The translations under genes were made by a program, and so were the position numbers. 64,000 nt of DNA from the NCBI GenBank assembly GCA_028866895.1, contig JAGWHF010000005.1, positions 86,249 to 150,248 on the forward strand, in the 5' to 3' direction. Each line of letters starts with the position of its first letter. The stretch's first letter is position 1. This document shows, piece after piece, positions 1,217 to 6,700 of the stretch. Below the pieces are notes generated by a model. The model saw only the letters and a list, made by a program, of their open reading frames with translations, ran no database searches and was not told where the DNA came from. The stretch is from Nitrososphaerota archaeon. Lineage in GTDB: Archaea; Thermoproteota; Nitrososphaeria; Nitrososphaerales; Nitrosopumilaceae.

Positions 1217-3121
1217 TCAACTGCAAGTAGTATCAGGACCAATACCACTGTAAAGTGACTTCAAATCATCGAGGTCACAGGGAGATATGTAGGCCCGTGA
1301 AGCCACGAACTGTTTATTCATCAGGTCCCCCGTAACAGGCAGGTGACTCAGACCCAAGGCATGACCAAACTCATGCCGAGTAATCGCCCCCATTTCCTTT
1401 GCAGTGAGATCCTTGGCATCAAAAATTGTAATAAACGACTTTAGTATCTGATGATGATCCGTGTCTGCTATTGTTTTGGTAAATCCAAGGGCCCCGTCTC
1501 CCTCCACGTCCGTTGTCAATATGATAACCACGTCTCCTATCGACTCCTGCCCCTGCACGATTTCAAAATTGGTAGGAAGGCTCACCGATGCATTCTGCCT
1601 AGCTATGCTTTCAATAGCCCCCTTCCAACCTTTATAGTAAATTACATTTCCGCCTGGTGGTTTCACCCCACCGCCATTTCCAAGCGTAGTATCTTCAGAC
1701 AATATCGCGTCCTTTATTGCCTGAATTTTGGCGCTAGCGACCAAATTGGAATTTACTATGGTAACATGCAACGGTTCTCCCGGGCCTTTATGCCACGTTG
1801 CCCACGCAGTGATGTTTGCTCCTTGCAAGTTCTGGATTATGAATCTGCCTGACTGAATCACTTGGTTTCCCGAGGTCACTTCGGAAACATTCGAGGTAAT
1901 CACGTAGGTGGAAACCACCGTAAGAATTACCAAAAACGCCACCCAAAATGGCAGCAATTCATTACGCCTCCTGTCAAGTCTGCCAATGGCCCGAACCATA
2001 GTCTCAATAGAGGTCTCAGTCCCGCTTTCTCCCTTCCTTTCATAAGTATGCGTTTCAAGACCGTTGATTTTTGCATGCATTGTACGATTCTTTTGCAGCG
2101 TTACCATGAAAGCCAGTCCAAGGACAACCACCAATGCAGACAGGATGTATCCCGCAGGTGTAACCACCTCCAATTCCCTAGTTGACAGGTTTTGTTCTAC
2201 GGGAGTTTCAAACATAAGAATACAGAAGGCAACTACGGACGCAATCGAGAGGAAAGATACGATTTTCCAATGACTGGCAAAACCTTTTCTGCGGATTTCT
2301 TCAAATTCGGCCTTTACCTCCTCAATCAGAGGAGAATGGGCGAGAGATTGTTTTCTCCGCACCAATGCCGAGTATCCAATCATAACATAGGCTGAATAAA
2401 AGAAGATCTCAAACGGATATCCTGTGTGGTAGAACCCAAGGGCCGTTGCAATGCTGAACATGGTATCCCCGACAAGCATCGATATTATTCCAACAGCCAA
2501 GAAGCTCCAGAACTTTTTTGATTTCCCCAATTTTGACGAGGACGACAAAACTATTATTCCAGGCCAGAGCAATATTCCGTCCATAATAGGATATGCCAAT
2601 GACAATGCGATTGAAAGTACGCCCTCCCCTCCTGACGAATAAGCCATATAGATAGACGGCACCAGAAAAATTGACACCACCAGCGTAGCGCCAAGCTTAA
2701 CGTTAAATGTGGTATAATTTTTCAGCGGCCATAGCATTCGGAATATGAATATTCCCAAAAGTATGTAACCCCCAATATAGAAAAAGTCGGCAGCTGAAGG
2801 GAATGTCTTTCCGTGCAATACAAGTTCGGTGATCATCCAGGTATGCTCTGCCAAAAGCCAAGATACCGCAGAGCCAAAAAATAATATCCAACCCATATCG
2901 CGGTCTCCTATTTTGCGTTGCTTTTTCAGCAACAGGTAGGAGCTGATTACCATGAAGAATGTAACAGGCACGTAGAGCAGGTTGCCAACCAATATCGAAG
3001 TCCCTGTCCCCTCCAAGTTAATAGCTAAAATTACCAGACCTATGATTCCAAGAATTATAACCAGATGCTTCTCTGTAGCTACCTGATTCAGTACATCCTT
3101 GACATACCTAGGATTTTCCAT
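1217..3121 (-). CDS. Polytopic membrane protein with C-terminal metzincin (matrixin-like) protease domain
   Basis: The 634-residue product has an N-terminal region of roughly ten hydrophobic segments (about residues 15-340). A further membrane segment follows near residues 385-410. The last 220 residues are predicted to lie outside the membrane. That domain contains HEFGHALGLSH at 583-593, the HExxHxxGxxH zinc site of metzincins, and a downstream Met (about 601) in GDLM that fits the Met-turn. Two Cys near the C-terminus (617 and 633) may form a disulfide. The membrane part resembles the N-terminal sensory region of archaeal membrane kinases rather than a transporter. The likely role is an exported, membrane-tethered protease, possibly acting on surface proteins such as the next gene's product. 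The substrate is unknown. Confidence 0.8.
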   Translation of the reverse strand: MENPRYVKDVLNQVATEKHLVIILGIIGLVILAINLEGTGTSILVGNLLYVPVTFFMVISSYLLLKKQRKIGDRDMGWILFFGSAVSWLLAEHTWMITELVLHGKTFPSAADFFYIGGYILLGIFIFRMLWPLKNYTTFNVKLGATLVVSIFLVPSIYMAYSSGGEGVLSIALSLAYPIMDGILLWPGIIVLSSSSKLGKSKKFWSFLAVGIISMLVGDTMFSIATALGFYHTGYPFEIFFYSAYVMIGYSALVRRKQSLAHSPLIEEVKAEFEEIRRKGFASHWKIVSFLSIASVVAFCILMFETPVEQNLSTRELEVVTPAGYILSALVVVLGLAFMVTLQKNRTMHAKINGLETHTYERKGESGTETSIETMVRAIGRLDRRRNELLPFWVAFLVILTVVSTYVITSNVSEVTSGNQVIQSGRFIIQNLQGANITAWATWHKGPGEPLHVTIVNSNLVASAKIQAIKDAILSEDTTLGNGGGVKPPGGNVIYYKGWKGAIESIARQNASVSLPTNFEIVQGQESIGDVVIILTTDVEGDGALGFTKTIADTDHHQILKSFITIFDAKDLTAKEMGAITRHEFGHALGLSHLPVTGDLMNKQFVASRAYISPCDLDDLKSLYSGIGPDTTCS

Positions 3122-3516: not shown

Positions 3517-3659
3517 TCTAGTCTTTACTCCAAGTCATGGTTTTTCTGAAACTGAAAAATATTGTAGGTCGAGAAGAACAGATGATTTACCCGGCCAAAG
3601 ACTTTCAATTTTCTTGCCTAAAGCTTGATAAATAGTCCGAAATTATCCAAGAATTGCAA

Positions 3660-5444
3660 ATGGCAAAATTTCTTAACAAGACCGTCGTCATAACTGGAAG
3701 CGGAACCGGCATCGGCAAGGCCATCGCCATCAAGTTTGCAGAAAATGGGGCCAACATAGTCATAATGGGAAGACGCAGGGAGCCCCTTGAGGAAGCTGCA
3801 AAGGAGCTCCAGCAGGCAATCAGCAAGTGCGGAAGCGGGGCCTTTGTCAGGACATATCCAGGTGTTGATGTAAGTGACGAACTGGGAGTTTCAAGGATGT
3901 TTGAAGATCTGAGTTCAAAAGGTCCTGTCGACATTGTGGTCAACAACGCCGGCGTTTCCGGACCCGTTACCTGTTTTCCAAATTCCCCGATCGATGATTT
4001 CAAGGGGACTGTATCCATACACCTTACTGGCACATTCTGGACCTCCGCACAGGCTGCAAAGGCCATGAAGCCCGGAGGAAAGATCATCACAATATCCACA
4101 TTCTTTACCGAAGAACGTCCCTTCGAACAAAGGCCGTACAGGTTCCGCAGCCCCTACACCGCTGCACAGGGGGCAAAGAACAGGCTCGCCGAAGCCATCT
4201 CATGGGAGCTTACGGAAAAGGGCATCATATCAATAGCAACAAATCCCGGCCCCGTCCACTCTGACAGAATATACAAAACAGTCTATCCCAAAGCGGCGGC
4301 GGAGTTTATGAGGGTATCAGGTTTTGAAAGCTTCAGTCCCGAAGACGTCGAAGTCATAAATAGCGACATCCTGCCATTACTGGGCGAGGACGAAGCTACT
4401 GTAGCCAAGGGCATAGCACATGCAGCGGCAAAACTTGCAAGTGCAAAGTCCATCGACTCGGCAGATCGCATCAAAGAGATGGAAAAAACCACCAATGCCC
4501 TCCTCATGAAGATCCAGCAGATTGCAGAAAAGGTCCAAAAAAACACAAGCAAGATGATAGCCGATGAGCAGTTCCTCTCGCAGCAACAGGTTGCAGAAAC
4601 AGTCATGATGCTGTGCGATGAAAACATATCGAGGATCCTAAACGGCAAGGTCATCCCAGGCGACAGGGTGTTCTATCCTGTCAAGCCCCACATTGCATGC
4701 TCAGTACCAGAAACCAAGCCCGACTACAATTCAAAAGTGGTCCTTTTCGTAGTAGACGCGACCGACGAGTACGACATTGCTAGAATTGAATATCTTGCAC
4801 AGAATATCGAGAACAGCCGGGGCAAAACGGTCATCCTTATCTCAAAGACAAGCACTCCACAGGCGGAGCAAAGGTTGTCAAAGTTCCACTCACACGTCAT
4901 GGACATCACGAGCCAGGAGAACATGAGAAGGATGCTCAACACGGCAACCCAGAAGATAGGCCCAATAAGTACAATGATTTACGTGACTGGGAGGATCCCC
5001 CAGATGGGCAGGCTTGTCGACCTGCCAAGGCAGAAGTGGGATGGCCTTGTAGACAAGTTCGTAAACACTCCTGCGTCTGTACTCCAGGAAGTCCTCGGAA
5101 GGTTTGTCCCAGACGGTGCAAAAAACCCCCCTCTCTTCAAGGACAAGGATGGGACAATAATACTGATTGGGCCAGACATGCCGGTTGGAGCCAAGGTGAC
5201 CGGAATGGATCGTGCCAAGGTCGAAGTGTTCAGGGGAGCCCTAAGACCCTTTACCACAACAGTCAACCAGGAATTAAGCGACGTGTTAAAATCAAAGATA
5301 AGGCTTCACCTCGTCCTGCCAGGCAGCGTAGATGGAACCGAGTCAAGCAATGAAAGCGTACTCAATGCAATTAACTACTTTAGCTCAGGCAGGGCAGTCT
5401 CAAACTCCGAAGTCATCTACTATCCAGACGAAACAAGATCCTGA
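3660..5444 (+). CDS. Tandem short-chain dehydrogenase/reductase, malonyl-CoA-reductase-like architecture
   Basis: The 594-residue protein has two Rossmann modules. The first (1-330) has TGSGTGIG at 12-19 for NAD(P) binding, NNAG at 95-98, a catalytic-type Ser near 146 and Tyr166. The classical YxxxK Lys is Gln170; a Lys sits instead at 173, giving the Y-x6-K spacing of FabI-type enoyl reductases. An insert (about 205-310) rich in helices precedes a second, degenerate module (about 350-594). Layout and local similarity (NPGPVHSDRI, ISTFF) recall one half of Chloroflexus bifunctional malonyl-CoA reductase. An upstream TTG at 3654 is possible, but ATG 3660 is preferred. Its stop overlaps the MaoC start by one base, so the two probably act on the same acyl-CoA or acyl-ACP chain. 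The substrate is not proven. Confidence 0.75.
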   Translation: MAKFLNKTVVITGSGTGIGKAIAIKFAENGANIVIMGRRREPLEEAAKELQQAISKCGSGAFVRTYPGVDVSDELGVSRMFEDLSSKGPVDIVVNNAGVSGPVTCFPNSPIDDFKGTVSIHLTGTFWTSAQAAKAMKPGGKIITISTFFTEERPFEQRPYRFRSPYTAAQGAKNRLAEAISWELTEKGIISIATNPGPVHSDRIYKTVYPKAAAEFMRVSGFESFSPEDVEVINSDILPLLGEDEATVAKGIAHAAAKLASAKSIDSADRIKEMEKTTNALLMKIQQIAEKVQKNTSKMIADEQFLSQQQVAETVMMLCDENISRILNGKVIPGDRVFYPVKPHIACSVPETKPDYNSKVVLFVVDATDEYDIARIEYLAQNIENSRGKTVILISKTSTPQAEQRLSKFHSHVMDITSQENMRRMLNTATQKIGPISTMIYVTGRIPQMGRLVDLPRQKWDGLVDKFVNTPASVLQEVLGRFVPDGAKNPPLFKDKDGTIILIGPDMPVGAKVTGMDRAKVEVFRGALRPFTTTVNQELSDVLKSKIRLHLVLPGSVDGTESSNESVLNAINYFSSGRAVSNSEVIYYPDETRS

Positions 5445-5914
5445 TGAAGAGATTCTCGGAACTCAAGGTTGGAGACGAGTTTTTCGCAGATTGCACCATC
5501 ACACCGTCAGACCTTTACACATACCTGACTTTTTCCGGCATTAGAAATGTCATTTATGAAAAGCACGAGTCCACAGAAAGCGGACCCAAGATGGTCTCTG
5601 GACGGGCAATCCTGGCAAGGATGGAGGGAGAGTTTACAAAACTCGACGAGTTTTACGGGAACCAGTTAATCTTTTACGGAATTGACGGCGATCCCTCCTG
5701 GAACGGGAGACAGACAAGGTTCCTTCGACCCCTCCGTACTGACGAGAGATTAAAGGCCAAGTTCACCATCTCCGACAAGCGCGACCTAAATGACGAGTTC
5801 GGACTCATCTCTGTCGACTTTGAAGGTACTGGAGAGGACGGAAAGACAATCCTTATCTCCAAAAGAAACCTCTATCAGATGAAAAAAAATTCAGCCCGCA
5901 CGCCAGAAAAGTAG
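5444..5914 (+). CDS. MaoC-like hot-dog fold protein (putative hydratase/dehydratase)
   Basis: The 156-residue product begins F-S-E-L-K-V-G-D-E-F, the usual opening of MaoC/FAS1-dehydratase hot-dog domains. It continues with VSGRAILARMEGEFTKL and a C-terminal strand-rich half. The classical R-hydratase motif DxNPxH is not seen (DLYTYLTFSGIRN occupies that place), so catalysis is uncertain. Translation is coupled to the SDR gene through TGATG. Known partners of MaoC domains are acyl-CoA reductases and dehydrogenases, which supports a joint hydratase and reductase step. Size fits a single hot-dog domain. Confidence 0.65.
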   Translation: MKRFSELKVGDEFFADCTITPSDLYTYLTFSGIRNVIYEKHESTESGPKMVSGRAILARMEGEFTKLDEFYGNQLIFYGIDGDPSWNGRQTRFLRPLRTDERLKAKFTISDKRDLNDEFGLISVDFEGTGEDGKTILISKRNLYQMKKNSARTPEK

Positions 5915-5926
5915 CCTGCAGGGGCC

Positions 5927-6700
5927 TCACAACAAGCGCACGTTGAAGGCATCCGTGAAGAGCTTCACGGCAGTCACGGCAAGAATCACAGTCACAAGTA
6001 TTCGCAGTTTACCCTCCGGAACCATCAACGAGATCCTGCTTCCCACCATTCCGCCTACAAATGCACCAGAGGCCAACAGTCCAGCCTCCATAAAGTTAGC
6101 GTGTCCCATCACCGAATGAACCACCATGCCCGAGGCTGCCACGAACATAAGTATGAACTGCGATGTTGGTGCTGCAAGCTTCATGGAAAGCCCCATCGCA
6201 ACGACCATTAGGGGCACAAACACCGTGCCTCCACCGATGCCGAAGAGGCTAGATATCACGCCAGCAAAAAAACTTGCCCCGACCGCAAGCACCATCATCT
6301 GCTTTGAGAGGTTGTATTCCTTTGGCTCCATCTTCCTCTTGGAATATATGTATACGCTTGAGGCGACTAGAACCATCCCAAATAGGAGCTTAAACATAGA
6401 GGCCCCTATCACATCCGACACATAGGCGCCAAGTACAGTGCCCGGGATTGAAACGAGGGCAAGCTTCAACCCAAGCGAGAAGACCACCCGCTTCTGCCTG
6501 GCATAGGACATCGTAGCAGCCACCGCATTACAAAAAGCCGCAAAGAGGCTGTCGCTTGCCGCGAGAGTTGGAGGGTATCCTGCAAAGGTCAATGCAGGTA
6601 CCACTATGAAACCTCCCCCCAGCCCTATCATAGACCCAAGAATTCCTGCCACAAATCCCAGAGGAACCAACCACAGGTATTCTAGCAAACCCAACACCAA
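5927..6700 (-). CDS. TauE/SafE (DUF81) family anion exporter
   Basis: The 257-residue product has about eight hydrophobic helices. The two glycine-rich repeats typical of the family are GSMIGLGGGFIVVPALT near residues 22-38 and SLFGIGGGTVFVPLMV in the second half. These internal repeats are diagnostic of TauE/SafE permeases, which export sulfite, sulfoacetate or related organosulfur anions. The sulfite/nitrite reductase and rhodanese genes lie about 14 kb away, so a sulfur link is possible but not shown by context. The gene is convergent with the MaoC gene, 12 bp apart. Confidence 0.85.
   Translation of the reverse strand: MVLGLLEYLWLVPLGFVAGILGSMIGLGGGFIVVPALTFAGYPPTLAASDSLFAAFCNAVAATMSYARQKRVVFSLGLKLALVSIPGTVLGAYVSDVIGASMFKLLFGMVLVASSVYIYSKRKMEPKEYNLSKQMMVLAVGASFFAGVISSLFGIGGGTVFVPLMVVAMGLSMKLAAPTSQFILMFVAASGMVVHSVMGHANFMEAGLLASGAFVGGMVGSRISLMVPEGKLRILVTVILAVTAVKLFTDAFNVRLL

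Follow-up and report, generated by a model that had tools for sequence, protein, structure and literature searches.

The window, that is, the whole stretch of DNA analyzed (64,000 nucleotides), carries two overlapping genes on its + strand. The upstream one (3660–5444) encodes a tandem SDR protein of 594 aa when read from the ATG at 3660; a TTG lies in frame at 3654. The downstream one (5444–5914) encodes a MaoC-like hot-dog protein of 156 aa, and the first base of its ATG is the last base of the stop codon of the SDR gene, which makes for an overlap of one base. The source genome (2.26 Mb) carries archaeal amoA, and among named taxa, Candidatus Nitrosotalea species come closest to it; thus, the window is DNA of an ammonia-oxidizing archaeon (AOA). 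Residue numbers given below are those of the tandem SDR (P0001) with the initiator Met removed, and all its features lie on the + strand.

Module 1 of the tandem SDR contains the nucleotide-binding motif TGSGTGIG (residues 11–18; 3693–3716) and an NNAG motif (residues 94–97; 3942–3953), exact instances of the two signatures (TGxxxGIG and NNAG) that a preliminary description of this DNA had reported. Asp69 is also present, and Arg37-Arg38, which come after β2, would be of the NADPH type. The position of Asn in the classical SDR tetrad is taken by His120 (4020–4022). The active-site segment Y159-R-F-R162-S-P-Y165-T-A-A-Q169-G-A-K172 (4137–4178) displays the Tyr-x2-Arg-x2-Tyr motif of malonyl-CoA reductase (MCR), but with Gln169 at the canonical Lys site (Tyr165+4) and Lys172 at Tyr165+7. 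Downstream, PGPVHSDR (4245–4268) matches the PGP[IV]xx[DE]R pattern of MCR in the alignment. The catalytic-site residues of module 1 were invariant in an alignment of 52 orthologues covering four AOA families (Nitrosopumilaceae including Nitrosotalea, Nitrososphaeraceae, a Nitrosocaldus-type family, and one more); this includes His120, and Tyr159, Arg162, Asn173, Arg174, and GPVHSDR (196–202) were invariant as well. Gln at the classical Lys site with a Lys three residues further on had been pointed out before, and because the pair Gln169/Lys172 is invariant in all 52 sequences, it reflects neither decay nor chance. Judged from the alignment, the active-site pattern of module 1 is under strong constraint. 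A decayed SDR gene is ruled out by the same invariance.

An AlphaFold model built from 18 orthologues (mean pLDDT 86, pTM 0.86) displays two Rossmann modules. When it was compared with the PDB using Foldseek, ranks 1–25 were all MCRs, either N halves, C halves, or whole enzymes (E 2.7e-25 to 1.5e-19, TM about 0.7, some 650 columns), whereas the best SDR other than MCR reached 1.5e-13. The earlier comparison of the architecture with half of an MCR was thereby substantiated: like one MCR half, P0001 consists of a catalytic SDR, an insert, and a degenerate SDR. The second module (residues about 346–593; 4698–5441) had been described as degenerate, and its sequence is indeed poor in motifs; the SDR signatures are missing and Pfam adh_short_C2 scores weakly, and only in some orthologues. 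It does contain a conserved stretch, VFRGALRP..TVNQEL, and in the model it is nevertheless a real Rossmann/SDR-like module. Sequence-only comparison of module 2 with SDR2 and SDR4 of MCR (hhalign) gave no significant match, and it is the fold search that suggests an MCR-like module here. Between PGPVHSDR and NGKVIP, a helical insert of 132 residues is found (4272–4640). The span from PGP to NG/SG comprises 132 residues in P0001, compared with 50 in a FabG-like control, 71 in the N half of MCR, and 176 in the C half. In the latter, the extra domain forms the CoA pocket; the insert of P0001, which is of intermediate size, may be of that kind.

For comparison at the sequence level, MCR was represented by PDB sequences of the bifunctional Chloroflexus/Roseiflexus enzyme and its solved halves (8hjw, 8hi4, 8aet, 8hi6, and 6k8s), the Chloroflexus sequence being identical to 8hjw. 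The bifunctional bacterial enzyme comprises four fused SDR domains (about 1220 aa) and catalyzes both reactions on one chain, whereas P0001 has two modules in 594 aa. In the A1 profile search, full-length MCRs reached E values of 9e-44 and 2.5e-41 versus 1e-24 for the best other SDR, but these high scores sum two matching stretches, and a single module scores about as well as good FabG or glucose dehydrogenases. Likewise, sequence identity in module 1 is 28–31% to MCR and 32% to a glucose dehydrogenase. In a tree of module 1, the thaumarchaeal rows and both MCR halves were split from 17 other SDRs with a support of 99/97, which held when either the C half (100/99) or the N half (99/96) was left out; an initial tree with more long-branched rows gave 95/86. 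The grouping with the MCR halves thus appears good, but long branches keep it from being final. The free tree joined the thaumarchaeal SDR with the N half (87/79), and hhalign also scored the N half slightly above the C half; still, the topology with the C half was not rejected (p-AU 0.18). From these sequences, phylogeny does not place the thaumarchaeal SDR nearer to the CoA-acylating C half than to the alcohol-dehydrogenase N half. Among plasmids, relatives of MCR were not found at E 1e-30.

In the MCR of Roseiflexus (RfxMCR), the residues that handle the substrate are Tyr743, Arg746, Tyr749, Ser731, and Lys753 (C half) and Tyr172, Arg175, Tyr178, Thr165, and Lys182 (N half); mutation of Lys753 abolishes activity (PMC10470521). 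Tyr159, Arg162, and Tyr165 of P0001, invariant in the 52 sequences, align with Tyr743, Arg746, and Tyr749, and Thr146 (4098–4100) aligns with the catalytic Thr165 of the N half and Ser731 of the C half. PGPVHSDR corresponds to PGPVEGDR or PGPIESDR in MCR. Arg1164 of RfxMCR is apparently not kept, according to manual mapping. Neither is the Tyr-x3-Lys pair of bacterial MCR, as the thaumarchaeal proteins have Tyr165-x3-Gln169 throughout (52/52). In the C half of MCR, Lys occupies Tyr+4 and Gln occupies Tyr+7; in P0001 the two are swapped, with Gln at Tyr+4 and Lys at Tyr+7. The archaeal protein further differs from the bacterial enzyme in having His for the tetrad Asn. These two exchanges, at the canonical Lys and at the tetrad Asn, count against P0001 acting as a malonyl-CoA reductase.

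The preliminary description had also taken the overlapping hot-dog gene to encode a hydratase partner. The hot-dog fold and the one-base overlap stand; the Foldseek matches of its model include MaoC-like 1q6w (2.2e-8), PhaJ1 (1.6e-7), and 4ffu. The catalytic part of the proposal fell, however. These (R)-hydratases have the motif SGDxNPxH, whereas the family encoded here has SGI[KR]NxIY or SRI[KR]N, and by this motif reading, the catalytic Asp/His dyad of MaoC is replaced in all 10 members aligned. The gene lies beside the SDR gene in most Nitrosopumilaceae, but it was not found next to it in Nitrososphaeraceae or Nitrosocaldaceae, and none was found in the Nitrosocaldus-type family. A homologue in Nitrososphaeraceae is located away from the SDR gene; it is intact in one genome (G132) and contains in-frame stops in several others (G070, G185, G248, and G109), where it is apparently a pseudogene. 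As the dyad is absent and the gene is missing or decayed where the SDR is kept, a hydratase partner was rejected. At most, the hot-dog protein has an accessory or acyl-CoA-binding role.

The tandem SDR is nearly universal in, and specific to, AOA within the genomes searched. It was present in 267 of 400 genomes of the class, and amoA in 249; both occurred in 234, only the SDR in 33, only amoA in 15, and neither in 118 (Fisher p 7e-53, a value that ignores relatedness and should not be over-read). The genomes with the SDR only all belong to AOA families; of 14 such genomes tested, 13 contain a gene of the 4-hydroxybutyryl-CoA dehydratase family. Conversely, at least two amoA-positive genomes initially scored as SDR-negative (G263 and G312) carry a fragment of the gene at a contig end. 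Drawing from the whole phylum, the SDR was present in 73 of 398 genomes, all from AOA families, and none was found outside these families; the complete genome G096, a non-AOA member of the same order, does not have it either. Nearly every genome that has the gene has one copy. Both G046, at 1.23 Mb the smallest of the complete AOA genomes examined, and the early-branching Nitrosocaldaceae retain it. Presence across AOA is, however, equally expected of any AOA-specific gene. A gene of the 4-hydroxybutyryl-CoA dehydratase family (PF11794) also occurs in genomes with neither amoA nor the SDR (G096, G146, G163, G169, G175 (family f4), G197, G004, G014, and G021), so that within this class PF11794 by itself does not mark the HP/HB cycle.

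A TauE/SafE permease gene (5927–6700, − strand) lies close to the tandem SDR in the window. Such a permease is also encoded near or beside the SDR in Nitrosopumilaceae, Nitrososphaeraceae, and the Nitrosocaldus-type family (loci L118, L120, L121, L123, L125, and L126), and homoserine dehydrogenase is encoded near it in several AOA loci; this neighborhood is an old conserved gene order. In nine genomes, no gene of the HP/HB cycle was adjacent to the SDR, and the gene context thus speaks neither for nor against a role in this cycle.

AOA fix CO2 via a variant of the HP/HB cycle. For four of its activities, malonyl-CoA, acryloyl-CoA, succinyl-CoA, and succinic-semialdehyde reductase, measurements have been reported but the genes were unidentified (PMC4510362 and PMC6038301), as was stated again for malonyl-CoA reductase (PMC6964070); these enzymes are described as not homologous to their counterparts in Sulfolobales (PMC7845616). 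The statements on missing genes date from 2015 to 2020; the open literature yielded no later identification, most subscription papers being outside the scope of the search. The nearest precedent for the proposal made here is a remark from 2018 (PMC5797428) that Nitrosocaldus encodes short-chain dehydrogenases, sharing ∼30% identity with the Chloroflexus enzyme, as possible substitutes for malonic semialdehyde reductase.

The malonyl-/succinyl-CoA reductase of Sulfolobales, which acts at the same pathway step, is of the aspartate-semialdehyde dehydrogenase type and has an unrelated fold; P0001 has no ASADH-type Pfam match. Exactly two semialdehyde-dehydrogenase genes of this type (PF02774) were present in each of the 13 genomes checked, which is the number one would expect for the reductase of the LysW pathway plus aspartate-semialdehyde dehydrogenase. 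The complete genome G046, which has amoA and the SDR, contains no gene of the aldehyde-dehydrogenase family. Medium-chain (PF00107) genes, the family to which acryloyl-CoA reductase of Sulfolobales belongs, number five to nine per genome checked. Taken together, elimination favors thioester reduction over enoyl reduction for the tandem SDR, which is an argument, not proof. The candidate for a malonic semialdehyde reductase of the Fe-ADH type (about 320 aa), which other AOA do have, is missing in two AOA families; it was not found in G067, G099, G164, G137, and G112, the last of which represents family f5, and this extends a published remark on one Nitrosocaldus genome (PMC5797428) to a second family.

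We therefore propose, with odds that we consider just short of even, that the tandem SDR is an NADPH-dependent malonyl-CoA reductase of the MCR type, whether or not it also accepts succinyl-CoA. It would convert malonyl-CoA to malonic semialdehyde, the second step of the thaumarchaeal HP/HB cycle, and possibly succinyl-CoA to succinic semialdehyde, the tenth. Both NADPH and the thioester would be bound by module 1, with Tyr159-Arg162-Tyr165 and Thr146 presumably sitting where MCR holds and reduces its substrate. Lys172 may take on the ribose-binding and Tyr-activating role that in MCR belongs to the Lys at Tyr+4; analogy to FabI-type enzymes suggests that it stands in for the canonical Lys. 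Module 2 and the helical insert might form the CoA pocket, comparable to SDR4 and the extra domain of MCR. The link to 3-hydroxypropionate metabolism, which had been raised as a possibility before, has gained likelihood from fold, phylogeny, restriction to AOA, and the documented gap in the pathway. That some non-AOA genomes have a gene of the 4-hydroxybutyryl-CoA dehydratase family but not the SDR counts against a role in the cycle.

This last point also bears on the assumption that the SDR is an AOA-specific oxidoreductase acting outside the HP/HB cycle, for instance in the metabolism of lipids or other acyl compounds, on a re-used MCR scaffold. The gene tracks AOA and not the 4-hydroxybutyryl-CoA dehydratase family, its conserved neighbors are the permease and homoserine dehydrogenase and not a gene of the cycle, and the altered Asn and Lys sites would allow for a chemistry different from that of MCR. 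We nevertheless regard such a function as unlikely, although to be taken seriously, since the only solved proteins of this architecture are MCRs and since the gene is retained in G046 and the early-branching Nitrosocaldaceae, where there is a documented gap to fill. Less probable again is that P0001 reduces malonic semialdehyde, succinic semialdehyde, or both to the respective hydroxy acid, working like the N half of MCR. Thr146 and the segments "RxPY" and "PGPxxSDRI" resemble this half, the free tree and the slightly better hhalign score point the same way, no gene for succinic semialdehyde reductase has been assigned in any AOA, and Nitrosocaldaceae lack the malonic semialdehyde reductase of the Fe-ADH type (PMC5797428). 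However, AOA that do have the Fe-ADH reductase carry the SDR gene just as well, the insert exceeds that of the N half in size (132 versus 71 residues), and it would be odd for an alcohol dehydrogenase to have lost the classical proton-relay residues Asn and Lys.

An acryloyl-CoA (enoyl-CoA) reductase with a FabI-like Tyr-x6-Lys pair, finally, has little probability in our judgment. The spacing between Tyr165 and Lys172 is indeed that of FabI and invariant in the 52 sequences, and the acryloyl-CoA reductase gene is likewise unassigned in AOA. FabI is defined by a divergent glycine motif (GxxxxxSxA) on a single-domain chain, whereas P0001 has the classical TGSGTGIG, a second SDR module, and the insert; enoyl-ACP reductases were absent from the 60 best PDB sequence matches and the 50 best fold matches, and the medium-chain genes mentioned above offer alternatives for this step. 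The enoyl-reductase identity that the preliminary description had drawn from the Tyr-x6-Lys spacing was consequently abandoned, as this spacing is the only FabI-like trait and the MCR halves are the nearest structures.

Returning to the proposed malonyl-CoA reductase, a farther-reaching version of it, which we consider doubtful, is that this one gene serves both thioester-reducing steps with a new active site (Tyr-x3-Gln-x2-Lys versus Tyr-x3-Lys-x2-Gln in the C half of MCR), that the archaeal half represents a third, independent branch of the MCR type, and that halves of this sort gave rise to the fused bacterial enzyme. The thaumarchaeal HP/HB cycle has been described as the most energy-efficient aerobic route of CO2 fixation known, and some of the most abundant inhabitants of oceans and soils run it. 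Confirmation of the malonyl-CoA reductase would complete part of a globally important pathway, furnish a gene that marks CO2 fixation in archaea, and offer 3-hydroxypropionate engineering a stand-alone malonyl-CoA reductase whose active site is new. A nearly universal, AOA-specific half-MCR gene turns the reductase gap into a question of one gene and one assay.

Upstream of the tandem SDR, the opposite strand of the window (1217–3121, − strand) encodes a protein of 634 aa that apparently has an N-terminal membrane part and whose sequence ends in a zinc-protease motif of the matrixin type (PF00413), HEFGHALGLSH.
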